From NCBI GenBank assembly GCA_001247695.2, contig LGRX02033451.1, positions 53,761 to 117,760 of the forward strand: a stretch of 64,000 nt of DNA. The letters run 5' to 3'. Both the position numbers and the translations under genes were made by a program. Positions 30,024 through 64,000 of the stretch are shown piece by piece. This DNA comes from Cymbomonas tetramitiformis (lineage: Eukaryota; Chlorophyta; Pyramimonadophyceae; Pyramimonadales; Pyramimonadaceae). Positions within the stretch are counted from its first letter, which is position 1, and each line of letters begins with the position of its first letter. The notes under the pieces were generated by a model. That model ran no database searches, was not told the DNA's origin, and saw only the letters and a program-made list of their open reading frames with translations.

Positions 30024-32229
30024 ATGGTTACCACAGCAAATAGAATGACGCGGTCACGCGTCCGTAGATTAGAGACGATTTTTGATGATGTGGGTGCGCA
30101 ACACGCTGCGACACCACACACCCCGCAGCTGCCAGCTCCGTCCACCGCGGCTGCGAGGGAGCTCCTCGACAAATGTCAACAGCTTGCTCGCGACAATTTT
30201 GACAGGAAGGTTGCGAAAATCGTTGCCACGAAAATTCTCGGAGAAATCGGACCGCTTCGCTGGTACGGAGTCCGACGCAGTCGACATTTTTTCACAAATC
30301 ATGCATGAGCTTCGGACACAGTTTCTTCTGCAGTCGCAGGCGCTTGCTCCCCTCTTTGACCTGACTGACATGACTGTTGCGGCTAGGCATGAGGGCAACG
30401 AGTTGCTGCTTTCGGCTCTGACGTTTCTGGCTCGCCCTGGCTCGCCTGCTCGTGACTGGCTTGAGGCCTCTGGGTCTGACGTTCCTGGAGATGGCAAGCG
30501 CGCTGCCCTTGAGGTGGTGCGCATGCTCCAGGAACGCTCAGAACCCTTTGACTCTTTTGAGTCGCTGCTGGCGGTTCGCATCCCCAGCAGCGAAGATCCT
30601 GACCGTGGCATCCGTGAGTTCAATGGCCTGTTGCGGGACGTTCAGCGTTCCCACAACTTGCCAGAGGACGCGGTGAAGCGGCAGTTTCTCAAGGCTCTCG
30701 GCAATGCGGCTCTATACCGTGACTTGGCTAATTCCTTGGCTCGAGCTGACCAGCGGCAGGGCGTGTCTCTTCTGACTATTCAGGCTCGTGTGCGGGAGCA
30801 GTTCCGCCACGGCCTGAAAGTCTCTGGCACCCCTATTTCGGCTCTGTCATTCGGCGATGGCGCGTCTGACCTGGCTGCGGCGTTGTCCAGTCTGCAGAAG
30901 CAGCTGGAGCGCATGCAACAGGACATTCGTGACCTAAAGCGGCAGAGACGGGAGGAGCCTCCGCCTGCGGGCAAGCACCTTACCCGCTCTGCTGCCAAGC
31001 ATCATCGTGCTGGTGTTAAGCCACTTGGCACCGCTCCTCCTGTCTCGTTTGACAAGAAGAGTGGTGCCTTCGTGCCCCGCTGCAAGAATGCGGTGTGTGC
31101 ACAAAGTGGTTTGAAGCACTGGCATGCTGAATGCCCCAACGGCGGTCTTCACTCTGCCCACTATTGTAGTGCGGTTGAGGACTACGAGGCTGACTGCTTG
31201 GCTGTTCGTTTCCAGCGGTTCTATGACGCTGGGGATGCACATGCCTTCGAGTCGCTCTGCGCGATGGAGGGTCGCCCGGAGGTGTGCGAGCTGTCGGCGC
31301 ATTCTTTTGTGACGGCTGAGCCCACGTCTCTGCGGCACTTTCAGGATGCGGTGGCTTCCGCTCATGATGCGGCAGCTGACGATGACGGCGTGGCTCACTT
31401 TCCTCTAGCCACATTCCACTCGGATGCACGGGGTTCGATTCCGCCACCGCCTGCGGTTCGGGATCCCTCTGCGCTCGTGGCTGGTGGTGTGCCTACGGCT
31501 CATGACCCACCAGTGGCTGTCCCTGGCTCTCTCGGCTTGCCTGGTTCTGTCCCATCGCTCCAGCTTGGCGGCTCTGCACCGGCTCCGCTGTTTGCTGGCA
31601 TGACGATTGAGGCTTCTGACATTGGCTCTGAAATCTCTGACAACGACCAAGGCTCTGACAATGACTCTGACGGCGGGCAGCAAGTGGCTTTTGACTCCTT
31701 CGGCACTCTTGAGCATGACTCTGACAGGGGGGCATCGCCACTAGCAGCTCCGATGTACCGTCCACGGGCGCCGCCGAGTTTTCTCCGGTGTGCATTAATG
31801 TCATCGGTGCTCTGTTGCTCTCTACTGGCCAGTGCTACGGCATCTCTGGTTGCCGTGGGCGGTGGTGACAGGGGCCTGGTTGAGCCCGGAGTCACCGTCC
31901 ATCGGTCCACTGGAGGTATCTTTGCTTCGGATCCGCCACTTGGCTCTCTGGACATCCGTGATTGGCCGCCTGACGGTCGAGTTCTTTCATCTCTTTCTTC
32001 GATGTTCAAACCGCCATGGGGATCTGCTCGTATTGGTTCTTCAGTTTATTCACTTTCTGCTGTGGAACCGCCTTGCCCACTTGGGCCTGGTGGTGCTCAA
32101 TTTCAAAAAGACAGTCTGCAATTCACTTCGGATTTACTCTGTGTTTACATCCCAACCGCTGAACTCAGCTCTGCTGACCAGCTTCAAAGTGGCCGAGTTT
32201 CTGGTCAATCATCCTGGCAGCTTGATTAG
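30024..32229 (+). pseudogene. GAG gene of element B, one frameshift
   Basis: Starts at ATG 30024 (MVTTANRMTRSRVRRLET) and ends at 32229. Near 30242 one base is missing compared with element D, so the first ~72 codons lie in another frame from the rest. Otherwise it closely matches D: capsid-like core with LARPGSPARDWLEASG and DAVKRQFLKALG, a coiled region, zinc knuckle C-x4-C-x6-H-x4-C (about 31080-31135), and a hydrophobic segment CALMSSVLCCSLLASATASL at about 31790-31850. The tail ends PTAELSSADQL. No pol domains. Confidence 0.85.
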
Positions 32230-37751: not shown

Positions 37752-38399
37752 TGTCAGGGTCATGACCGATGACATATGTGTCATACATGTCATACCTGTC
37801 ATACCTGTCAGACATGTCATACCATGTCATGTCATGTCAGTCGGTCGCGTCATATATTTATGACAGTCGACAGTATGGTCGACCATGACTGTACATGTCG
37901 AGTCGCGTCATATATTGATATGACATTCGTCAGTACGGTCGACGATGACTGTACAGGTCGCCAGATGATAATGTCATATTATCAGGCATCCCTGTCATCG
38001 AGAGTTCGTAAGTCGAACTCGATGATGGCAAAGCAAAGATACATCTTGAATAACAAACAAGAACCATCTTGGCTTTTAGCATGCGCGGAACTCGCATGCG
38101 CAGCATGAACGAACTAGTCGTTTCCACAATGCTGGTCGTTCAACCTACGTCTCGGGTTCACAACCCAATGGCGGTACCATCTAAGATGATGGGAGACGTA
38201 TGGTACTTAAGTGAGGAAGCGTTGTGCTTCAGCAGATCTTCTTACAGAGACTGCACTCACAAACCCGCTCATCCGTTCACTTGCATTGCTGTCCAACTTT
38301 GCAGTGTTTCTTTGTATACTGATAATATATTCACGGCGCCTGTATATACAGCCGTATCAGTGTATATACAGCCGTATCAGTGTATATACAGCCGTATCA
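37752..38399 (+). repeat. 3' LTR of element G
   Basis: 648 bp, uninterrupted. Differs from the 5' copy by a handful of substitutions and by having three rather than four copies of the terminal 20-bp unit. Confidence 0.9.
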
Positions 38400-40276
38400 A
38401 CCAGGCCCCTGACACCACCGCCGACCACGAGGGTCGGCATCGCCGTAGCACTGAACAGAAACGTAGCCACCATGAAAAGAGTGAGTGCAAATTCACCGAT
38501 GCCAAATGGCCTGGAGCCTCTGGGGACTCCGAACCGCCGAAACGCTGCAGTCGTCGGCGGTGCACCCCCCTCAATTTCAGTCAGGCAGACACCAGGAGGG
38601 TAGTTGGAGCCCTCCCCATCATCATCGGAGTCACAGACATCAACAGGCTCAGGGTCAATGTCAAACCAGTCAGGGTGGACAGTGTTGAATGTTTTGAAAG
38701 AACTGCCAGCAGGAGCCATCGGGCCGAGAGACAGAGAGGCAGACGGCGGCACAAAGGTGGCACGGTTGACTTCATGCAAGTCAACCGGCTCACCATGCAC
38801 AGGTGCAGAGGCCTTCGGCAGCAGCTGCTTGTCAGTGGTCGGCTCAGCAACACCACCAGCAAGCGGACCGCTGACCGCAGCAAATGCAACACGGCCAATA
38901 GAGAGATGCTCGGCAGGTGCAGACTCAGCAGAGGCAGCAGCATCCTGGAACTGCTTGACAGAGCCGTAGGTTTTGGAGCAAAGGAGTGTGCACTGTGCAG
39001 ACAGTTCACAGATTTCGGGTTGCCCCACGAGAGCACACAAGTGCTCCATAGACCCTTCATCCCCAGCGTCATAATACCGCTGAAAACGAAGGGTAAGCAC
39101 GTCGGAGTCATAAGACTCGACGGCTCGGCAGTAGGATGCCGAGATGGACAACGGGTGAGTGTCCTTGTGAGGACACTCACTGAGCCAATGCTTTGACCCA
39201 ACGGCGCGGCACTTCTCGTGCCTGCACGTTGGGACAAAGGTGCCAGACCGCTTGTCAAAAGCCACCTCCTTAGAGGCGGAATGAGCAAGTGGTTGCACTC
39301 CAGGTCGGTGGAAATTGCGCGGAGTGTGCTTCCCAGGGGGCGGCTTGGAGCCATCCCTCTTAAGGGAATCCACATCCCGCTGCAACTTGACCAACTGAGA
39401 ACTGAGCCGCTCAATGGCCGAAGCCAGGCCAGTGTCAGTGGTGCAAGATGCTACAGACATGGGGCGCCCTGCAGTGCGCTTGCCCGAGAGCCGCCCGCAG
39501 CGGTACTGCTCGCGCACGCGTGCCTGCAGGGTGAGCAGAGTCACAGCCGCACGCTGGTCAGCTCGAGCAAACGAGTCAACCAGCGTGGCGTAAGCCGGCC
39601 CAGATAGAGCAGAGAGGAATTGTCTCTTAACAGCGTCTTCGGGCAGCGTCTGCAGACGCTGTGCATCCCGAAGACAACTGTTAAAAAGACGAATGCCAGA
39701 GTCAGGGTCATGCTCATCCGAGATTCTCACCTCAAGCAGCTCAGCAAAAGACTCGAATGGAGTCGAATCATCAGCAAGCATACGCACCACCTCGAGGGTG
39801 GCACGTTTGCCATCAGCAGGAACATCGGCTCCAGAAGCCTCTACCCAATTACGGGCAGGAGACCCTGGCGCAGTCAGCAGCAACAGCACAGAGTACAGGA
39901 GCTCATTGGCAGCAGGCATGACAGGGACATCAGCAGCAGTCAGCTCAAACAGGGGTGCAAATGCCTGTGACTGCAGCTTGAAAAGCTGCTGAATTTCGGA
40001 GATCAGTTGTGAAAAAATGTCCGAAGCCGACGATTCATTGCCACGAAATTTTGCCGTCTTGTCTCCCAAAACCTTAGTTGCTGCTGTCTTCGCGCACTGC
40101 ACATCAAAGGAATATTTCCGTAACCGCTGCACGAGCGTCGCAGCCGCAGCTGACTCGTCAGATGTAGACAAATGCGGTGTTGTGGGGGTAGCCGAGTTTA
40201 ATGCCCCAACATCATCGAAAATAGTTGCTAATTTACGCGCCCTAGCGCGTGTACGTGGCCTCTGCGGTGTATCCAT
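38400..40276 (-). pseudogene. GAG N-terminal part of element C, cut by G
   Basis: Starts at ATG 40276 (MDTPQRPRTRARARKLATIF, the family start). Contains the capsid-like core (LTAPGSPARNWVEASG, EDAVKRQFLSALSG), zinc knuckle C-x4-C-x6-H-x4-C (TCRHEKC...HWLSEC), and the hydrophobic helix FALTLFMVATFLFSATAMP at about residues 593-612. The frame then runs into element G at 38399. The remaining C-terminus is at 20805-21119. Uninterrupted by other stops, so the gene was intact when G inserted. Confidence 0.87.
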
Positions 40277-40654
40277 TTCCAAAATGACGGTGAGATCGGG
40301 AGCGTGGGCTAGTGTGGCGGCAGTAGAGAAACCAGCGGATGCAGCGGCCAATTCCTGCAGAAGTCTCAGCAATAAAAACAACATCAAACAGGTCATGAGC
40401 CGATTGGCTAAAAGTGGTTGCGACCCACAATACGCGGAATGCCCTCTCCACCGGCCAGGTGAAACGTAAAAAGAAGCCATAGCGAGCGACGATACTGCTG
40501 CCGAAAAATGTCCCAAACTGATCTCCACCTCAAGGAGAGGCCATACCGCGGAAAGGTCAACTACTGCCTAAGGGGGCGCCCACCCCATCTCTGTGTCAAA
40601 ACTTAGCCAAGCATGGCAACAGCTAGGCGCTGTGCCATCAGAATTACCGGGAAA

Positions 40655-42304: not shown

Positions 42305-44485
42305 TCAGCCACTTTGAGGCTGGTCAGCAGGGCTGAGTTCAGCGGTCGGGATGTAAGCACAGAAGAATCCCGAAGTGAATTGCAAGCTGTCTGTTCCAAA
42401 TTGAGCACCACCAAACCCAAGCGGGCAAGGTGGATCCACAGCAGAATGTAAAGTAACCGAAGACTGTAAAGACTCCAAAAACACTGAAGAACTTAAACAA
42501 GTAGACTCCCACGGCGGTTTGAGCATCGAAGAGGAACACAGAAGAACTCCACCATCTGGCGGCCAATCACGGATGCCTGCAGCACCAAGTGGTGGATCCG
42601 AAGCAAAGAGATCTCCAGTAGACCGACGGACGGTGGCTCCGGGCTCAACCAGGCCCCTGTCACCACCGCCCACGGTAACCAGAGACGCCGTAGAGCTGGC
42701 CAGCAAGGAACAACAGAGCACAGATGCCATTAGTGCACACCGGAGAAAACTCGGCGGAGTCCGCGGACGGTACACCGGAGCTGCTACTGGCGATGCTCCC
42801 CTGTCAGAGTCATGCTCAAGAGTGCCGAAGGAGCCAAAAGCCACTTGCCGCCCGCCGTCAGAGTCATTGTCAGAGCCTTGGTCGTTGTCAGAGACCTCAG
42901 AGCCAATGTCAGGAGTCTCAATCCTCATGCCAGCAAACAGCGGAGCCGGTGCAGAGTCGCCAAGCTGGAGCGACGGGACAGAGCCAGGCAAGCCGAGAGA
43001 GCCAGGGATAACCACTGGTGGGTCATGAGCCGCAGGCACACCACCAGCCACGAGTGCAGAGGGATGCCGAACCGCAGGCGGTGGCGGAATCGAGCCCCGT
43101 GCACCCGAGTGGAATGTGGCCAGACCAAACTGAGCCATGCCGTCATCGTCAGCCGCCGCATCCTGAAAGTGCCGCAGAGATGTGGGCTCAGCCGTCGCAA
43201 AAGAATGTGCCGACAGCTCGACCACCTCTGGGCGACCCTCCATCGTGCAGAGCGACTCGAAGGCATGCTCATCCCCAGCGTCATGGAACCGCTGGAAACG
43301 AACAGCCAGGCAGTCAGTCTCATAGTTCTCAACTGCACCACAATAGTGGGCAGAGTGAGGACCGCCGTTGGGGCATTCAGCATGCCAGTGCTTCAAACCA
43401 CTTTGTGCACACTCCGCATTTCTGCAGTGGGGCACGAAGGCACCGCTCTTCTTGTCAAATGAGACAGGAGGAGCGGTGCCAAGTGGCTTAACACCAGTAC
43501 GATGATGCTTAGCGGCAGAGCGGGTAAGGTGCTTGCCCGCAGGCGGTGCCCCTTCCCGCTTCTGCCGCTTTAGGTCACGAATGTCCTGCTGCATGCGCTC
43601 CAGCTGCTTCTGCAGACTGGACAACGCCGCAGCTAGGTCAGACGCGCCATCGCCGAATGACAGAGCAGAAATAGGGGTGCCAGAGACCTTCAGGCCGTGG
43701 CGGAACTGCTCCCGCACACGAGCCTGAATAGTCAAAAGAGACACGCCCTGCCGCTGGTCAGCTCGAGCCAAGGAATTAGCCAAGTCACGGTATAGAGCCG
43801 AATTGCCGAGAGCCTTGAGAAACTGCCGCTTCACCGCGTCCTCTGGCAAGTCGTGGGAACGCTGAACGTCCCGCAACAGGCCATTGAACTCACGGATGCC
43901 ACGGTCAGGATCTTCGCTGCTGGGGATGCGAACCGCCAGCAGCGACTCAAAAGAGTCAAAGGGCTCTGAGCGTTCCTGGAGCATGCGTACCACCTCAAGG
44001 GCAGCACGCTTGCCATCTCCAGGAACGTCAGACCCAGAGGCCTCAAGCCAGTCACGAGCAGGCGAGCCAGGGCGAGCCAGAAACGTCAGAGCCGAAAGCA
44101 GCAACTCGTTGCCCTCATGCCTAGCCGCAACAGTCATGTCAGTCAGGTCAAAGAGGGGAGCAAATGCCTGCGACTGGAGAAGAAACTGTGCTCGAAGCTC
44201 ATGCATGATCTGTGAAAAAATGTCGACTGCGTCGGACTCCGTACCAGCGAAGCGGTCCGATTTGTCCCCAAGAATTTTCGTGGCAACGATTTTCGCAACC
44301 TTTCTGTCAAAATTGTCGCGAGCAAGCTGTTGACATTTGTCGAGAATCTCCCTCGCAGCTGCGGTGGTCGGAGCTGGCAGCTGCGGGGTGTGTGGTGTCG
44401 CAGTGTGCTGCGCACCCACATCATCAAAAATCGTCTCTAATCTACGGACGCGAGACCGCGTCATGCTATTTGCTGTGGTAACCAT
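42305..44485 (-). CDS. GAG polyprotein of element D
   Basis: 726 residues, uninterrupted, from MVTTANSMTRSRVRRLET (family start) to PADQPQSG. In order: basic N-terminus with RRLETIFDDVGA, capsid-like helical core (FAGTESDAVDIFSQ, ARPGSPARDWLEASG, EDAVKRQFLKALG), a short coiled region (LAAALSSLQKQLERMQQDIR) and KRQKR, zinc knuckle C-x4-C-x6-H-x4-C at about residues 353-371, acidic Ser-rich region, hydrophobic helix RCALMASVLCCSLLASSTAS at about 578-600, then a ~125-residue tail. No protease or pol domain. Likely to form particles for its own RNA and depend on an autonomous partner (inference). Confidence 0.9.
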   Translation of the reverse strand: MVTTANSMTRSRVRRLETIFDDVGAQHTATPHTPQLPAPTTAAAREILDKCQQLARDNFDRKVAKIVATKILGDKSDRFAGTESDAVDIFSQIMHELRAQFLLQSQAFAPLFDLTDMTVAARHEGNELLLSALTFLARPGSPARDWLEASGSDVPGDGKRAALEVVRMLQERSEPFDSFESLLAVRIPSSEDPDRGIREFNGLLRDVQRSHDLPEDAVKRQFLKALGNSALYRDLANSLARADQRQGVSLLTIQARVREQFRHGLKVSGTPISALSFGDGASDLAAALSSLQKQLERMQQDIRDLKRQKREGAPPAGKHLTRSAAKHHRTGVKPLGTAPPVSFDKKSGAFVPHCRNAECAQSGLKHWHAECPNGGPHSAHYCGAVENYETDCLAVRFQRFHDAGDEHAFESLCTMEGRPEVVELSAHSFATAEPTSLRHFQDAAADDDGMAQFGLATFHSGARGSIPPPPAVRHPSALVAGGVPAAHDPPVVIPGSLGLPGSVPSLQLGDSAPAPLFAGMRIETPDIGSEVSDNDQGSDNDSDGGRQVAFGSFGTLEHDSDRGASPVAAPVYRPRTPPSFLRCALMASVLCCSLLASSTASLVTVGGGDRGLVEPGATVRRSTGDLFASDPPLGAAGIRDWPPDGGVLLCSSSMLKPPWESTCLSSSVFLESLQSSVTLHSAVDPPCPLGFGGAQFGTDSLQFTSGFFCAYIPTAELSPADQPQSG

Positions 44486-44903
44486 GATAGAGAGACAGGG
44501 GAGAGGTCGAGCTAAGCAGGGCGATGGTGTAAGAACTGTCACAGCGGCCAGATACTTCGTAGAAGTCTCAGCAGAACAGACTGAAAATTACAGGTCGTAA
44601 GCGGAAGATTGAGAGCGGCCAAAATTCACAACGTGTGGAGCGTCCTCGCCAGGGCCAGTGGCGCACGATGCAGATCAACTCTCGCTGCGACGATACTGCC
44701 GTAAAATAAAAACAATCCGCCACAAACTGATCTCCTGCGCAGCGAAGGCGAACACAACGCGTGCCGCCATCACTGCCTTGCAAAAGGCCATACCGCGAGA
44801 ATGATACACCACCGCCCAAGTGGGCGCTCAACCCCTCCTACGTCCTACTTAGCCGAACATGGCAACAGCAAGGCGCTGCGCCATCATCAGAATCACCGGA
44901 AAG

Positions 44904-50040: not shown

Positions 50041-51860
<1,820 letters not shown>

Positions 51861-52000
51861 GAATAGAAATTCTGTCCATTTCTGGGGAATAGATTATGTG
51901 TCACACGCACATGCGTCTACTATCACCATTGGGAGTGAGATCGTGAGTTTAGGCTTGGTGACAACACGCGAGACAACACTAAGTATTTTCAGACGTGTTC

Positions 52001-56720: not shown

Positions 56721-56871
56721 CTGGGTGTCAGGTGTGCTTCACATAGACATATCGGGGCGTCCAAGGTTCAGAGTTTTAGGATATATGTTGGAGGAGTCGT
56801 AACCGGAGGTCATTTGCACACACCTGCGTTCGTCACATAGAACCACAACCCGCACCTTAGACTACCTCACC

Positions 56872-56912
56872 AGTAAAAGAAAAAGAAAAAGAGACACCCT
56901 TGGACAGGGTGT
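56872..56912 (-). other. 3' end of the LINE: stem-loop and short repeats
   Basis: In element sense ACACCCTGTCCAAGGGTGT (a hairpin) is followed by TCTTTTTCTTTTTCTTTTAC. Stem-loop plus short tail repeats is the usual form of LINE 3' ends recognised by their RT. Confidence 0.55.
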
Positions 56913-56952
56913 GGGGCTTTGTGAGTCCCCTTGACTCCTTCTTCTTTGTCCC
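56913..56952 (-). other. LINE 3' UTR
   Basis: Short untranslated stretch between the stop codon at 56953 and the terminal stem-loop. Confidence 0.5.
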
Positions 56953-59900
56953 TTAGTCTGGTTCCTTGTCTACTTTAGTTCTGTATAGTCTGTTTAGGCT
57001 TACTGCAAATCCTGTCGCTAGGTCATGTATTTTCCTGAGTAGGTGTAGGGCTTCCTGTCTGTCGAATCCTAAATGTTTGGTCAGTATTTTCTCCGTGTGT
57101 TCGTATATTGTTCCCGTATTGCCGAATACCATTACGTGTAGCGTTACCTTGTAGCCATATAGTTCTAGTAGTTTTACTAGCGGTGTGTATTTTGTGTACT
57201 TCGTTTTTAGTGCTTCCTCCCAACTCATTTCGTCTGTGTATGTTACCTCTATCAGGTGTATGTGGCCCGCTTCCGTCATTGCCTTTTGGTGTGTGTACCC
57301 AGGCTGCTCATTCCCCTTTTCAGTTCCCTCTAGCATTACTATGTCCACGTAGTGTGGTATGGTGTCCTTTCCGTGTGCTGGTGCCGGTGTGTTTCGTCCG
57401 TCCAGTCTGCATTGCCCCCTTGTGAGGAGGAAGTCTTCTATTGGTCTCCCGTTGTTCATTCCTTCCCCTTTTTTCCCCGCATGGGTTCTTATTACACATC
57501 CTCCTTTCCTGCCTTTGCTAATTGCTTTCGCTATCATTTTGGTGGTCTCATCCGACCTGCTTATTATCATGTTCTTTATCTCCCTCTCTGTGCATCCTCC
57601 CAGCACATGGGCTGTGCGTATGAATCCTCCCGCGTTTACTTGTCTGGGCATCCCGCAGCATTTGCATTTTTGCGACCTTCTCCCTCCTTGCTGCTTCTTG
57701 TATGGTCCTGCTGGTAGTTTGTTCGCCCGGCATCTTAGCAGGACTGTCACGTCTTTCTCGTTTAGGTATTCCGTTCCCTTTTTCCAGTATCCATTAGAGA
57801 GCTTGTGCATGGCTTTATCACCTTTGAGGTGCTGCATGTATTTTTCTGGCTTTTCTTGTGTTGCTGTCAGTATTTTTTCCCTCGAGGACTTTCTCCATTC
57901 CTTCACTTGGTGTACTTCCTTTTGCGCTGCTTCCTGGTCCTGTACCATTTCCTGGAGTGCTCTCCATTCTTCCTGTGCTTCCTCCTGTTGTTGGGCCATT
58001 TCTCTGAGCTCGGCTGCGGTGTCCTGCTGTGTTGTCGTGTCCACATTCTGTGTTTCCGGTAGCTTCAGTTTCTGGGTTGACCCTTGTGCGGTTTCTCCTT
58101 GGGCTTCCCTCGGCCCTTCAGCTTCCCGTAGGGCTGGTTGGTCGGGTTTTGCCTGGCTTTGGGTTCTTCTTCGTTTTTGTCTTTCTCCCTGTTCTAGTGC
58201 CTCCTCTTTCCGTATTGTTCTTGTCTTCCATCCCTGTTCCTTATTCATTTCTACTCCCCGTGTGCTCTCTCGCCCTTGCCCCCTCTTTTGTTTAGCTTGT
58301 TGTGCTGTTTGTACTTGCTGCTCCTGTATTAATGCCTCCTCCTCTAATCGTTCCATCCTCTGGAGTTCCAATTCCTCTTCCTGTTCCTGTTGCCATTCTG
58401 GTTCATCGGGCCAGGTGTCTGCCCAGGCTGTTCCTATTTCAGTAGGCTCCCGGTTTCTTTGTGCGTATTCTGCCTCCTTCCTCTCAATGCGTTGTCTTTT
58501 GGTCTCCCATTCTTCTGGCCCGGTTTCTAGTTTCCTTTTTAGTCTTTGTATTATGTTCGTTTTTCCCGTCATTTTTGCCTCCCTCACCTTTTTTGTTACA
58601 TGGTTGAGTATTGCTTGGTGTCCTTCCAGTTGTCTACCCGTGGCCTCGCATATTGCTAGTAGCATCACTGTATCCGTGTTGTCGTGGTTGAGGCCGTATT
58701 CCCCTTCTTCACAGGCCCTTTTTGCCACCTCGTCCGCCATTTCATTCCCATGTATTCCCACATGCGCTTTAACCTTGTATAGGGCCACTTTTGTTCCCTC
58801 CTTATTTAGCTTTTGTATTTGTTTCATTATTTTCCACAGCAGGTCCCTGTGTACGTGCCTTTCAAGCGTGTGCGGCCTTCTTTTCATGTTTTGTATCTGG
58901 TAGAGGGAGGTCAGACTATCCGTGCATATGCTGACTTTCTCTTCTCCCGAGTTTGAGTCTAGTGTCAGTGCCATATATATGGCAGTGAGCTCCGCCCTGT
59001 TAACAGTTTGGCAGCGTCCGGCCCATCTTTGCATGTGGTTCATTGCCCGTTCCCCTCTTGGGTCCCAGACACCTGCCGCCGTTACTTCCTCGACTTCCCC
59101 GTTTTCCTTTTTGACTTTTCTTTGGCTTCCATCTGTGTAAATCATATTGTTTCTGTTATGCCTCCTTTGGGGCTCTGGGTATCCTTTCCCTTGGTTGTCC
59201 CACTTGCTTTCTGGTGGTGGTTCTGCTTTCTCCTTTTCACCCCTTTCCCACTGCAGCCATTGGTCTCCGTTTATGTGCTCGTCCGTTGTGTCTGGGCCCG
59301 TAAATTGTAATGCCCACCTTCTTAGGGCGTCTCTGTTTATTTCCTCCCTACTCCACGTGGTGTTAGCTCTTAGTACGTCCATAGTCGTTGGCCTCGGCCC
59401 TCTATCCCCTCCTCTGTGCTCCCCTTCTTTTTCCCTGTCTTCCATCCACCGGTCAATTATCTTCTCTGTGTGGTTCTCCAGGTGGCTGCCTGGTAGTGCT
59501 TGCATGACCGGTAGTTCATGGTTCATCCATGGCGCGGAGTCTATGACGCAATCCTTCTCCCATTCTGTAATTGACCTAGGTCGCCTGTCTGCATCCTTGA
59601 GGGTGAGAGGCCTGTGTATGTAGCATGCTCTGCCTATCGTCCTGACTTTGCTTTGCGGGCACTTGAGAAGGGCCTTGCTGAATATGTCGTGGGTTTTGAG
59701 TGCATCCGGGCAGTATTTTCTCCATCCTGCTGCATTCGCTACTACCAGTATTCTCATGTTCCAGTTGCATTGTTTGGGTTTCTGTAGGTTGCCTTGCATC
59801 CAGTGGTCGGGTGGTAAGAAGGTGAACTGCCCTTCCTTTATCTCCAGTAACTCGTGTACCCTGTATCCCATGTGCTTATTCAGCAGTTTTCTATACGGGC

Positions 59901-62652
59901 TTTTGGCGTATGTGGGGTATATTCCTACCCCCAGAACGGGTTCGGCCGTTTTTGTGGAGTTAATTGCCTTTTTCAGTGCCTTGTAGAGGTCCCCTGCTGT
60001 GTACTCTGGGTTGAATTGGTATGACCCCAGTTTTTCCCATTGCTCTTCCCATGCCGAGCCTACAGCCCCAAATACCGAGTCTCGTGGGTATTGCGAGTAG
60101 TACGTTCTGGTGTCTCTGTGTACATTAAGTGGGGAGGCGAATACCTCTGTTTGGACTCCCATGGCTGTGTGTACCGCCTCCATCATTTCCGGAGGGAAGG
60201 TCCAGTGGTTTTGGAGGTTCCTTTTTCTGTGTTTCATCTCCGCTTTGCTGGAGTACCTTATCAGCAGTTGTGCTATTTCCTCCTCAAAAGTGTTTACATG
60301 TATTTTGTGTTCTACACTTAGTTTCAGCCTTTTGGCCAGTTGTTTCTCTGTTGGCCTTTGTGCCGTGCTGTCCCCCACCGCCTCGGCATATCTGTCGTAC
60401 AATTCTCTAGCTTTTACCGTGCTCAGCGTGCCTATAAGGCTTCCCTCCGGCTCATAGCAGTAGGTGGTGTCACCTTCCGTGCGCAGTTGTCTGTCCTTCA
60501 CCCCTGGAATGTGCCTAATGTCCTGGTCCGGGTTCGTTTCCCTTGTGCATATTTCCAGGTGCGTTACTTCTTTCCAGTACCTCTGTTCGCCGTTTGGTTG
60601 TCCTGCCAGTATCTCTGCAGCGGGCTCGCGTTTGGTCCTTTTGTCTCTCTTGTCGTTCTTCCATTCCTCCACTAGGTTTTTCCATCCTTGGTCCGAGGAG
60701 AGGTTGTGTTTGAGCAGGTGTGTTCTTACTGTTTCTTCTGTGCTCCACGTCGTCTGTTCGTTTCCTTCTCCATCGGTCCACCGTATTTCGTACTGCGTTA
60801 CTTTCGAGGTCGAGTCTGTGTAGTTTTGCAGGTACTGTCTCGTTGCCAGTATCCCGGCGGGCGTGTAGTTTCCCTCTTGCCCTAGCATTTCCATTCGGTC
60901 TTCCTGTGTCGACCACTGGCCTCTGTCCTGTTGTCCTGACTTCCTCTTTACTCTCCCCCGCGGGTGTCTGGTTGTCATCACGTCGTCTTCCTCCTTTTCT
61001 TGGTCGGTTTCTATGCCCAGAAGTTCCTTCTCTTGTTCCGTCCACTCTACCTCTGACTGTTCGAAATGCTTCGTTTGGTTGGCTAGCGGGTACATAGACA
61101 CTAGTTGCAGTATGTCCTTCAGACTGTTTCCAGCCTCATGTAGCGCCTTTATTTGTGCCGGCCAGTTGCTTATGTTTTCCATGCTTACCGTACTTTTGGT
61201 GTACCTCTCTAGCTCTCCTGTTTTCCGTTCTTGTATATATTCAGGTTTCAGCCTTCTGTTCCACACATGGTCCCAGTGGTCCCCTGGTTTCTTAATGTCG
61301 TTGGGTTGTGCTTCGCAAATGTATGGGTATAGGTGCAGCATTCCCTGTGCTATCTTTGTTGCCGTTTTGGTGTCGTGTTTCCTTCCACCTGTTGCTTTCA
61401 GTGTTTCTATTGGTATGGCACTTTTCCCGTCTGCCGTGGTTAAGTTCTTGAGGTCCGGGTAGTTTCTGAATAGTGTGAGTAGTTTGGTAAAGTTTATTTG
61501 CTTGGTGGCTTGCTGAGTTTTCGTTTCCTGTATTACATTTACTGTTCCCATTTTTTCAAAGCCTGTCGTCGCAGGCTGCGACTGTGGGTCTCTGTATTCT
61601 GTATCCATTATCCTTTGGTGCTTGGTCGTTCTGGTTGTGCCCTCCATTTCCGCGTTTGTGTATACCCTTTTAGCTTTTCCCAGCTGCCTCATTATAGGTA
61701 GTGTTTCTTTGCCCAGTTCCTGCATGTGGGTTCCCACTCCTTTCACGCGTATTCCATATTCATTCAGAGCATTCATCTTCCTCAGAGTGTTCGTTTGTGT
61801 CTGCAGTCCCATTTTTAGTTTGCTCCTTGTGCTGCTGTGTCCCCTTTCTTCGAAGTGTTTTTCCAGTAGTCCGGCTGTGGACCTGCTAACTTGTGACATT
61901 CTTTGTCTGGTTTGAAGGTTTCTCTCCCTTTTGCCGTATCCCATCTGGGCCCCTTTGTCTTCCTCACTCTGAACGGCGCCTGCCAGTCCCGTGTACACTT
62001 CCTGTGCATATATTGCCTGTAGGGACTGGAGCCCCAGTCCGTATTCCTCTTTTTCCTCCGTGTTTAGTTCATTGGGCGTACCATTCGCGGGAAGTCCATA
62101 TATTCTTTTCATCGCGGCTCCCAGCTGATTTTCGGCCTGTTGTATTTCACCCTGTGTGTATATCCCGAGGTGGAGTCCGTATTTGAATTTCCCCAATATG
62201 GCCGACTTCAGGGAGTACTCTTTTTGTCTTTGTGTGAGGGGGGTTGCCAGTAGTGCGTCTATTCTTCTTTTGAGTTCCCGTAGTGACTTTCTTTTCTCCT
62301 CTTTCCATGTCCCCAGCATATTGAGTAGGACCCCCAGGTACTTGTAGGTATCCCCGGCTTTTAGGACTTTTAGCGTTCGACTTCCGCATTTCACCCCTTG
62401 GTGCCTACTTTCTTTCACGTTTTTGTTGCCATGTTCTACCCCTGTTATCTTTGTTTTGTCCTCGTTTATTCTGAGTCCACTCCAGTCTCCAAATGCCGAG
62501 AGTTTCCTTAGCTGTTGCTCCATGCCTGTCATTAGTTTGGTTAGTATAATTAGGTCGTCCACAAACGCTCCGGAGGAGGTTCTCAGTTCCCCTCTGAGCT
62601 CCCTGTCAGTTGCATACCTGTGCTGGTATCCATGGTCCCCACCTCTAGCCAT
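56953..62652 (-). CDS. LINE polyprotein, RT motif C to endonuclease
   Basis: 1899-codon uninterrupted frame. Residues 29-60: RT motif C (AFVDDLIILTK) and thumb start (GLRINEDKTKITG). About 610-650: chromodomain-like (YEIRWTDGEGNEQTTWSTEE). About 800-985: resembles the PCIF1 cap-adenosine methyltransferase domain (EVFASPLNVHRD, FGAVGSAWEE, SYQFNPEYTAGDLYKALK, PDHWMQGN), with NPEY where PCIF1 has NPPF. About 1165-1310: RNase H with D (IYTDGS), E (NRAELTAIYMAL), D (CTDSLTSL) and KAHVGIHGNEMADEVAKRA. About 1400-1600: Glu/Gln-rich coiled region. About 1658-1690: zinc knuckle (KCKCCG...HVLGGC). About 1765-1860: RLE-like (YVDIVMLEG, IHLIEVTY, KYTKYTPLVKLL, VMVFGNTG). It nicks target DNA, copies its RNA and degrades the hybrid strand (family knowledge); the methyltransferase role is unknown. 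Confidence 0.8.
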   Translation of the reverse strand: MARGGDHGYQHRYATDRELRGELRTSSGAFVDDLIILTKLMTGMEQQLRKLSAFGDWSGLRINEDKTKITGVEHGNKNVKESRHQGVKCGSRTLKVLKAGDTYKYLGVLLNMLGTWKEEKRKSLRELKRRIDALLATPLTQRQKEYSLKSAILGKFKYGLHLGIYTQGEIQQAENQLGAAMKRIYGLPANGTPNELNTEEKEEYGLGLQSLQAIYAQEVYTGLAGAVQSEEDKGAQMGYGKRERNLQTRQRMSQVSRSTAGLLEKHFEERGHSSTRSKLKMGLQTQTNTLRKMNALNEYGIRVKGVGTHMQELGKETLPIMRQLGKAKRVYTNAEMEGTTRTTKHQRIMDTEYRDPQSQPATTGFEKMGTVNVIQETKTQQATKQINFTKLLTLFRNYPDLKNLTTADGKSAIPIETLKATGGRKHDTKTATKIAQGMLHLYPYICEAQPNDIKKPGDHWDHVWNRRLKPEYIQERKTGELERYTKSTVSMENISNWPAQIKALHEAGNSLKDILQLVSMYPLANQTKHFEQSEVEWTEQEKELLGIETDQEKEEDDVMTTRHPRGRVKRKSGQQDRGQWSTQEDRMEMLGQEGNYTPAGILATRQYLQNYTDSTSKVTQYEIRWTDGEGNEQTTWSTEETVRTHLLKHNLSSDQGWKNLVEEWKNDKRDKRTKREPAAEILAGQPNGEQRYWKEVTHLEICTRETNPDQDIRHIPGVKDRQLRTEGDTTYCYEPEGSLIGTLSTVKARELYDRYAEAVGDSTAQRPTEKQLAKRLKLSVEHKIHVNTFEEEIAQLLIRYSSKAEMKHRKRNLQNHWTFPPEMMEAVHTAMGVQTEVFASPLNVHRDTRTYYSQYPRDSVFGAVGSAWEEQWEKLGSYQFNPEYTAGDLYKALKKAINSTKTAEPVLGVGIYPTYAKSPYRKLLNKHMGYRVHELLEIKEGQFTFLPPDHWMQGNLQKPKQCNWNMRILVVANAAGWRKYCPDALKTHDIFSKALLKCPQSKVRTIGRACYIHRPLTLKDADRRPRSITEWEKDCVIDSAPWMNHELPVMQALPGSHLENHTEKIIDRWMEDREKEGEHRGGDRGPRPTTMDVLRANTTWSREEINRDALRRWALQFTGPDTTDEHINGDQWLQWERGEKEKAEPPPESKWDNQGKGYPEPQRRHNRNNMIYTDGSQRKVKKENGEVEEVTAAGVWDPRGERAMNHMQRWAGRCQTVNRAELTAIYMALTLDSNSGEEKVSICTDSLTSLYQIQNMKRRPHTLERHVHRDLLWKIMKQIQKLNKEGTKVALYKVKAHVGIHGNEMADEVAKRACEEGEYGLNHDNTDTVMLLAICEATGRQLEGHQAILNHVTKKVREAKMTGKTNIIQRLKRKLETGPEEWETKRQRIERKEAEYAQRNREPTEIGTAWADTWPDEPEWQQEQEEELELQRMERLEEEALIQEQQVQTAQQAKQKRGQGRESTRGVEMNKEQGWKTRTIRKEEALEQGERQKRRRTQSQAKPDQPALREAEGPREAQGETAQGSTQKLKLPETQNVDTTTQQDTAAELREMAQQQEEAQEEWRALQEMVQDQEAAQKEVHQVKEWRKSSREKILTATQEKPEKYMQHLKGDKAMHKLSNGYWKKGTEYLNEKDVTVLLRCRANKLPAGPYKKQQGGRRSQKCKCCGMPRQVNAGGFIRTAHVLGGCTEREIKNMIISRSDETTKMIAKAISKGRKGGCVIRTHAGKKGEGMNNGRPIEDFLLTRGQCRLDGRNTPAPAHGKDTIPHYVDIVMLEGTEKGNEQPGYTHQKAMTEAGHIHLIEVTYTDEMSWEEALKTKYTKYTPLVKLLELYGYKVTLHVMVFGNTGTIYEHTEKILTKHLGFDRQEALHLLRKIHDLATGFAVSLNRLYRTKVDKEPD

Positions 62653-63128
62653 CTAAGGAGAGGTTCCAGGTATAGTATGAACAGTAGCGGGCTCATGCTG
62701 TCGCCTTGCAGAATCCCCCTTCTTATTGGCACCTCTTCCGAGACCTGGTCCCCTACTTTTGCTCTCATTTGCATGGAGTCCTCCTCGTCTTCGCCCAGTA
62801 TGTCCCTGACAGCTTCGGTAAGTTGTGGTGGCACCCCTAGGTGTTTTAGCGTCGTAATGAGTCTTTCGTGGTCAACCGAGCCATACGCATTTTCGAAATC
62901 CACGTAGGTTGCATGTAGGCTTCGTTTGGAGAGGTTGGCGTCTTCAATGGCATTGGTTACCCTGGTGAGTTGCTTCATTGTGTTGTGGCTTTCCCTTGAG
63001 CCCTCTTGTGCTTCCGAGAGCATGCCGTTTATCTCACAGAAGTCAGCTAGCATTTTTGTGAGTACTGTAGTGTATAATTTGAACAGGCAGTCCAGTAGTG
63101 CTATAGGTCGGTAGTTTTTTTGTTTTGT
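62583..63128 (-). pseudogene. LINE RT fingers/palm segment, frameshifted
   Basis: Carries the RT motifs before motif C: KNYRPIALLDCLFKLY, HATYVDFENAYGSVDHERL (motif A with both Asp positions) and RRGILQGDSMSPLLFILYLE (motif B). The frame is shifted relative to the upstream part at an A6 run near 63165 and relative to the downstream part near 62640. Without the shifts it would be a complete RT palm. Confidence 0.85.
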
Positions 63129-64000
63129 TACTTCTCCTTGCTTGTGGTGGAAGCAGAAGTAGCCTTTTTTCCATGGTAGGGGGTGTGTCTATGCTCCCAC
63201 ATTAATTTCATGAGTTCACACAGTTGGTCGTGGAATCTGTCCGGCATCTGTTTCAGTATTTCATTTTGTATCCCCATGGGCCCGGCTGCTTTGTTGGTTT
63301 TCATTTTCTTCACCGCCTGTCGGTAGGCCTCTTTGTCCACATTTAGGTTTACTTTTGTTTGGTCCGGTCTTTTGCATTGGTTTTCCCTCATGTAGTTCTT
63401 GTACCTTTCGTCAAGCCAGGGTGGCGTATCTTTAAGTCCTTTCTCTGGTTCCTTCATTTTGTATGGTTCCGACCACGCAATGTGTTCTCCCATTGCCTGT
63501 GCCACTTTTTGGTGTCCTACCACTAGCTCTCCTTGCATGGTTTCAATCGCTTGTATTGTTGTAGTTGGTGCCGTTCCGTTTTCTATCTCTTTTTTGTATA
63601 TCAATTTATGGTAGTGCTTTATGTTGCCCCAGTATCCTTCTCTCATTTTCATTCTTGTTTTCTGTTTTCGGTTTGCTTCGTGTTCTTTAATGCACTTCCT
63701 TGCCTCTTTTGTCGCGAGCTTTTTCTGTTCCCGTTCCCATTGTTCCCATTCCCTCATTTCGTTTGTTCGGTTGTCAAAATCTTCCGTCCGTGCTTCCTCG
63801 GTTACTTGTTCTCGTGTTTCTATGTCCTTCTTCCATAGTGCTATGTTCTCACGGCACCTGTTCCTTTCTTTCAGGTGGCCGTCCCTTTCTTTGCGGAGGG
63901 TTTTTGGGAGGTGTAGTCCATGTTGTTGTTCTGGTGCTGCCGCTTGTTTCGGTAAGTTGACATCCATCATTGCCCTGTCTCTTGCTTCCGCCATTATCCT
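63128..64000 (-). pseudogene. LINE pre-RT linker and RT start (continues past the edge)
   Basis: Charged linker (REQVTEEARTEDFDNR, KMREGYWGNIKHYHKLIYKK) leading to the RT N-terminal motif KKMKTNKAAGPMGIQNEILK. This linker normally follows the AP endonuclease, which is not in the window. It ends out of frame at 63128 because of the shift near 63165. Confidence 0.8.

Follow-up and report, generated by a model that had tools for sequence, protein, structure and literature searches.

Retroelements that encode methyltransferase (MTase) domains are known, such as the Dam domain of DIRS elements and the DNMT of long interspersed nuclear elements (LINEs) in Symbiodinium, and why these elements carry them is an open question. 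Here we deal with a LINE of the pyramimonadophyte green alga Cymbomonas tetramitiformis, a copy of which lies partly in a stretch of 64,000 nucleotides (contig LGRX02033451.1, positions 53,761 to 117,760; hereafter "the window") and contains a PCIF1-type MTase domain in its long open reading frame (ORF). DIRS1-like retrotransposons also carry an adenine-type MTase of unknown role in their pol region (PMC3266345; PMC5890265); there it is Dam-like, follows ribonuclease H (RNase H) and is accompanied by a tyrosine recombinase. SymbioLINE-Dnmt is, like the present element, a LINE encoding an MTase, in that case under purifying selection (PMC5890265), although the enzyme is a cytosine-C5 MTase of an unrelated family and occupies a separate upstream ORF.

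PCIF1/CAPAM, described from human and zebrafish (PDB 6irv-6is0), is the cap-specific adenosine-N6 methyltransferase. Its helical domain recognizes 7-methylguanosine, m7G (PMC10544176), and the Pfam family PF12237, though named after the WW domain, corresponds to the CAPAM methyltransferase itself (PMC7641849). PCIF1 has been reported from eukaryotes only (PMC8868631), and choanoflagellate fusions carry this MTase family in another setting (PMC7641849). Giant viruses also possess PCIF1-domain proteins (Pithovirus LCPAC101, Hokovirus HKV1, Tetraselmis virus 1, Bodo saltans virus), whose folds match the domain studied here at E 7e-13 to 2e-8; in contrast to the LINE, they show no fusion to a reverse transcriptase (RT) as far as listed, and the one viral sequence read keeps the catalytic NPPF.

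We found no report of a PCIF1-type LINE among the best literature matches listed, although Kojima and Fujiwara (2005), Iyer et al. (2016) and Boulias et al. (2019) might mention one. In the available parts of the texts, "methyltransferase" occurs 0 times in PMC10675990, PCIF1 0 times in PMC12695648, and in PMC5741210 PCIF1 0 times and "methyltransferase" twice. The C. tetramitiformis genome has been described as containing three scaffolds of >10,000-fold coverage with homology to chromodomain, RNase H and cytosine DNA methyltransferase (PMC5741210), and other MTase-bearing retroelements may thus occur in this alga.

A PCIF1-type methyltransferase domain between RT and RNase H

A sequence-only reading had described the long ORF, with exact coordinates, as a LINE polyprotein bearing a PCIF1-like domain between RT and RNase H, at about residues 800-985. 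The profile search finds PF12237 (PCIF1_WW) at this place with E 1.4e-15 (57.7 bits, cut-off 31.1), and the same profile exceeds its cut-off in 10/10 relatives scanned whole. The AlphaFold model agrees with the proposed span: it has a Rossmann methyltransferase fold, closest to that of PCIF1, and matches residues 416 to 668 of the human protein (Table 1), the model being of low confidence upstream of the matched region. Foldseek and VIA rank PCIF1 far ahead of other folds, and a chance pattern match as the source of the domain is ruled out by the Pfam, family-profile and structural matches. The domain shares FASPLN and DxxFG with PCIF1; the former, already pointed out in that reading, has a degenerate DNA pattern that matches once in the window vs 0.01 expected.

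PCIF1 being by far the best structural and sequence match, with N6,2'-O-dimethyladenosine (m6Am) as its known product, the element could act as a true cap writer that, in the manner of the host PCIF1, methylates its capped RNA at the first adenosine. We consider this unlikely. No WW domain appears among the Pfam hits of P0001, P0005, P0006 and P0014 (E up to 1) or of P0008, P0012 and P0015-P0019 (E up to 0.05), and the m7G-binding helical domain, within the borders that we take it to have, is mostly unmatched, as the alignment starts at human residue 416 and the upstream model is of low confidence. With no WW domain (RNA polymerase II recruitment) among the hits and most of the cap-binding domain unmatched, the element is not expected to do exactly what PCIF1 does, and the substrate is therefore probably not found in PCIF1's way. 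The replacement of NPPF by NPEY (see below), as well as the presence of this MTase family in giant-virus proteins and choanoflagellate fusions (PMC7641849), also speaks against a cap writer.

A phage-Dam-type DNA adenine methyltransferase marking new complementary DNA (cDNA), like the MTase of DIRS, would share its substrate with the explanation preferred below and belong to another family. This identity is improbable, since PF12237 matches 8/8 members and Dam only 2/8, weakly: where both are found, the E-values are 2.7e-14 (P0014) and 6e-14 (P0015) for PF12237 vs 0.0065 and 0.033 for Dam, and PF05869 reaches 16.6 and 14.3 bits, respectively, vs a cut-off of 28.1 and is not listed for the other nine proteins. 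The structural rankings favour PCIF1 by far, and a tblastn search of phages gave no match to the P0014 domain at E 0.1.

Element class

The element is a dual-endonuclease, Dualen-like LINE, a class assigned by domain content, with Dualen compared by description. The RT is of the non-LTR (long terminal repeat) type, RVT_1 scoring 102.8 bits in the relative P0005 and the R2 RT being the best PDB sequence match of the RT part. An apurinic/apyrimidinic (AP)-like endonuclease, PF03372, lies above the cut-off in P0005, P0006, P0012, P0018 and P0019 and below it in P0014 (E 0.001), with none among the Pfam matches listed for P0015, P0016 and the shorter P0008 and P0017; the corresponding region of this copy falls outside the window. 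A C-terminal restriction-like endonuclease (RLE) and an RNase H complete the set. While the assignment to LINEs in the sequence-only reading is borne out, the dual-endonuclease, Dualen-like nature was not recognized there, and the long ORF proved to be only a part of the polyprotein, the rest of which lies in two other frames and beyond the end of the window.

Dualen/RandI elements of Chlamydomonas and relatives likewise combine an RT with AP-like and restriction-like endonucleases and RNase H, live in green algal hosts and end in a short 3' repeat tail. Kojima and Fujiwara, in 2005, reportedly gave a cysteine protease as a further Dualen/RandI feature. A Peptidase_C48 match in P0006 (E 0.0038, 17.5 bits, below the cut-off of 20.7) is a weak hint of a Ulp1-like protease, and none of the 7 PDB matches of that piece is a protease. 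Unlike the present element, Dualen/RandI is described without an MTase, the word "methyltransferase" being absent from the available texts of PMC4640811, PMC8226300 and PMC3747384, a comparison by description and not by sequence. The DIRS traits are also missing: the element has endonucleases instead, no tyrosine recombinase appears among the Pfam hits of the 11 scanned proteins, and the MTase precedes RNase H in 11/11 of them.

Conservation and descent of the domain

Three protein searches yielded 13 of 932, 6 of 2416 (one being the query) and 17 of 4758 candidates, resulting in 35 proteins from C. tetramitiformis, EukProt, ENA, JGI and Logan (the 17 of the third search from C. tetramitiformis, EukProt and ENA). 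Over residues 760-1100, CYMTET_3361 of C. tetramitiformis comes nearest (97%), and automatic protein records are already labelled with the Pfam domain. Sister copies keep the MTase segment, as read in searches that were all seeded on the MTase domain and to which sisters without it are invisible; its presence in the relatives is thus given by construction, which does not apply to its position, lying between RT and RNase H throughout.

The order RT-MTase-RNase H is kept in proteins of different origin that share 25-35% identity. Five relatives have MTase/RT identities to P0005 of 62/59, 34/37, 33/36, 35/40 and 31/34%, and P0019 has 25/37%, so that the MTase lies at most 5 points from the RT in 5/6. 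RNase H identities, in the same order, are 46, 26, 25, 33, 30 and 30%, below the MTase in 5/6 (by 1-2 points in two), and the linker retains 29-41% in P0006 and 12-25% in the rest. An artefact of no role, such as a gene-model fusion or a host gene fragment captured in one copy, might be suspected, since this copy is broken upstream and such captures occur in transposons; the constant domain order across divergent proteins and the parallel identities of MTase and RT make it very improbable.

The RT and MTase trees of nine proteins agree at supported shallow splits, and the two domains have probably, though not certainly, descended together since the root. At the deep splits the trees differ: P0018 groups with the algal proteins in the MTase tree (77/93) and with P0019 in the RT tree (100/98), both proteins being long branches.

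The chromodomain-like stretch claimed before the MTase receives weak support: the best chromodomain, that of CDY1, matches its profile at E 0.19, and Pfam Chromo is found in 1/8 members (E 0.15). PHD-finger matches were observed in P0016, P0017 and P0018 (E 0.0001-0.002, below the cut-off), at different places in the polyproteins. Together, these are hints of possible chromatin-reading modules.

The NPEY loop and the possible activity of the domain

As first proposed from the letters, NPEY stands at the site of the catalytic NPPF, with which the family profile aligns it in human and zebrafish PCIF1. Motifs were counted in 36 proteins (the window protein and 35 relatives), of which all except P0035 cover the loop. 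NPEY is found in 30/35, many relatives being near copies from one genome and the counts not independent, and the variants are NPAY (P0027), SPEY (P0033), NLEY (P0034), HPEG (P0019) and NPAEY (P0036). That NPEY arose by decay of this one copy is ruled out, since the motif is common to relatives only 31-35% identical to P0005 over the domain; being shared by several lineages, it is therefore a fixed feature. The first Asn and the aromatic residue are mostly kept across the relatives and the second Pro is replaced, FASPLN is kept in 30 of the 33 rows in which its site is visible, and DxxFG has a nearly invariant Asp. We infer that FASPLN and DxxFG are cofactor-pocket motifs, and the fixed loop points to an active site changed to fit a different substrate or product.

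We favour, at a probability of roughly 0.5, the explanation that this locus is a copy, frame-broken in the RT, of a Dualen-like C. tetramitiformis LINE whose acquired PCIF1-family MTase binds S-adenosylmethionine (SAM) and methylates N6 of adenine in cis. The polyprotein would have taken in the PCIF1/CAPAM-family domain between RT and RNase H; the retained FASPLN and DxxFG would provide SAM binding; and the substrate could be the element RNA in its ribonucleoprotein (RNP), nascent cDNA, or the RNA:DNA hybrid produced by the neighbouring RT. Such a mark would aid translation, packaging or tolerance of the element RNA, or mask new DNA from host silencing. More tentative is the broader proposal of a dual-endonuclease LINE clade, spread over several hosts, that may have turned a PCIF1 fold into an NPEY enzyme which, in the course of target-primed reverse transcription, methylates the RNA of the element or the nascent cDNA. 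The readings weighed in this work overlap, and their probabilities need not sum to one.

Several points weigh against the explanation that we favour. The consensus of N6-methyladenosine enzymes is [DNSH]PP[YFW], and a change of PP to AA abolishes methylation by METTL16 (PMC7927073); neither this motif nor NPPF is found in the domain, the second proline is lost in every protein of the set, and 0/36 have an NPP with F, Y, W or H as the next residue. The deep splits of the RT and MTase trees disagree, and the seeding of all protein searches on the domain, described above, counts here as well. Lastly, P0019, the most divergent relative, reads HPEG without an aromatic residue and has an MTase identity of 25% to P0005 vs 37% for the RT; its lineage may have lost methyltransferase activity.

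The main rival, to which we give clearly less than even odds, takes the PCIF1-fold module to be catalytically dead and to bind nucleic acid (or SAM, as a sensor); NPEY would be a fixed non-catalytic state, and the module would serve the RNP by binding RNA or the hybrid. METTL14 offers a precedent as the non-catalytic partner to METTL3. The frequency of NPEY and lack of NPP[FYWH], the METTL16 mutant and the HPEG of P0019 are in its favour, as is the Drosophila PCIF1, where F of NPPF is changed to H and no m6Am was found in flies, although bees, which have NPPY, are also without m6Am (PMC9479742). However, dead PCIF1 mutants are changed at the Asn and the aromatic residue of NPPF (PMC10544176), precisely the positions kept in the 30/35 proteins with NPEY, the FASPLN motif and the DxxFG Asp are nearly always kept, and an invariant loop with a fixed Glu is not obviously needed by a pure binder.

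If the methylating enzyme that we favour proves true, the fold of the cap methylase serves a second purpose, an entire lineage can as a rule exchange the second Pro of the N6-MTase motif, and a LINE writes its own adenine mark. With a PCIF1-type domain that lies between RT and RNase H, is almost as well conserved as the RT and carries a single fixed change in its active site, the question of why retroelements carry MTases becomes testable.

Search for a viral or bacterial origin

Relatives of the domain were sought in IMG/VR (10 and 43 pattern stretches) and in GTDB contigs (52 stretches), none being confirmed, and viral contigs probed with zebrafish PCIF1 gave 2 pattern stretches and no relative. 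We accordingly set aside the idea that this domain itself came from a virus or a bacterium, no relative having been confirmed in IMG/VR, GTDB contigs or phages; giant viruses, which have PCIF1 folds, may or may not have been its source. The DNA pattern FASP-N...NPP[YF] matched 4 viral stretches (L001-L004) and its TTC form 0. L001:6172-7224 (-), on a 79-kb IMG/VR contig, is a 351-residue open frame with a weak PCIF1-like match (15.2 bits) and FASPFN...DxxFG...NPPF; L002-L004, which show no more than FASPLN in an open frame of 64 residues, were dropped.

Layout of the copy and other features of the window

Within the window the copy is split over three frames by tblastn, -1 (64000-63161), -3 (63182-62634) and -2 (from 62640), and its 5' part lies beyond the window end (Table 1). 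RVT_1 in the long ORF remains below the cut-off (25.7 bits vs 29.6) because this frame holds only the C-terminal part of the RT. A 6p7b resolvase match at the C-terminus (E 0.3) was dropped in favour of the R2 match. The stem-loop of the 3' untranslated region (UTR) is modest (z -1.8 vs 300 shuffles).

Table 1. Features of the LINE copy, in window coordinates; residues are those of the long ORF unless P0005 is named.
Feature	Position	Strand	Evidence
Part of the element in frame -1, between AP-endonuclease and RT, continuing 5' past the window	63161..64000	-	tblastn, P0005 residues 1148-1427, 75% identity; ORF 63128-64000
Part of the RT (fingers/palm) in frame -3, a different frame from that of the long ORF	62634..63182	-	tblastn, P0005 residues 1421-1603, 87% identity
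Long ORF, 1899 aa: RT end, linker, chromo-like stretch, PCIF1-type MTase, RNase H, coil, CCHC and restriction-like endonuclease	56953..62652	-	ORF list, Pfam
RT C-terminal part with FVDD (residues 30-33) and thumb, residues 1-230	61963..62652	-	RVT_1 24-108; R2 RT chain 8gh6, E 7.5e-6 over 25-221
Chromodomain-like stretch, weak, residues about 600-650	60703..60855	-	CDY1 chromodomain E 0.19; Pfam Chromo 1/8 members
PCIF1/CAPAM-type MTase domain, residues 718-996 (Pfam core 783-917)	59665..60501	-	Pfam, profile, AlphaFold-model structure match
FASPLN motif, residues 838-843	60124..60141	-	Sequence motif
NPEY motif in the position of the catalytic NPPF, residues 881-884	60001..60012	-	Family profile aligned to human and zebrafish PCIF1
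RNase H domain, residues 1169-1314	58711..59148	-	PF00075, E 5e-18 (Pfam)
CCHC-like cysteines/histidine and R2-type restriction-like endonuclease, residues 1600-1899	56956..57855	-	
Short 3' UTR, predicted stem-loop and pyrimidine tail CTCTTTTTCTTTTTCTTTT	56870..56952	-	dG -29.0

In 56956-62652 (-), the sense strand has a strong excess of A (38.5%) and is poor in T (12.6%). At the 770 fourfold-degenerate sites of the long ORF A reaches 42.3% and T 6.6% (A 54% and T 4% in the RLE part), and T at such sites amounts to 25-37% in three other long ORFs of the window and 15% in an integrase ORF. Mutation of the first-strand cDNA or selection acting on the RNA might underlie this silent-site U depletion.

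Elsewhere in the window, three related long ORFs at 30082-32229 (+), 38357-40528 (-) and 42305-44542 (-) share QSQA[LF]APLF[DE]LT and are gag-like by our reading, the two of them scanned giving no Pfam match at E 0.01. The ORF at 50825-51910 (-) encodes an LTR-type retrotransposon integrase with an H2C2 zinc finger and an rve core.
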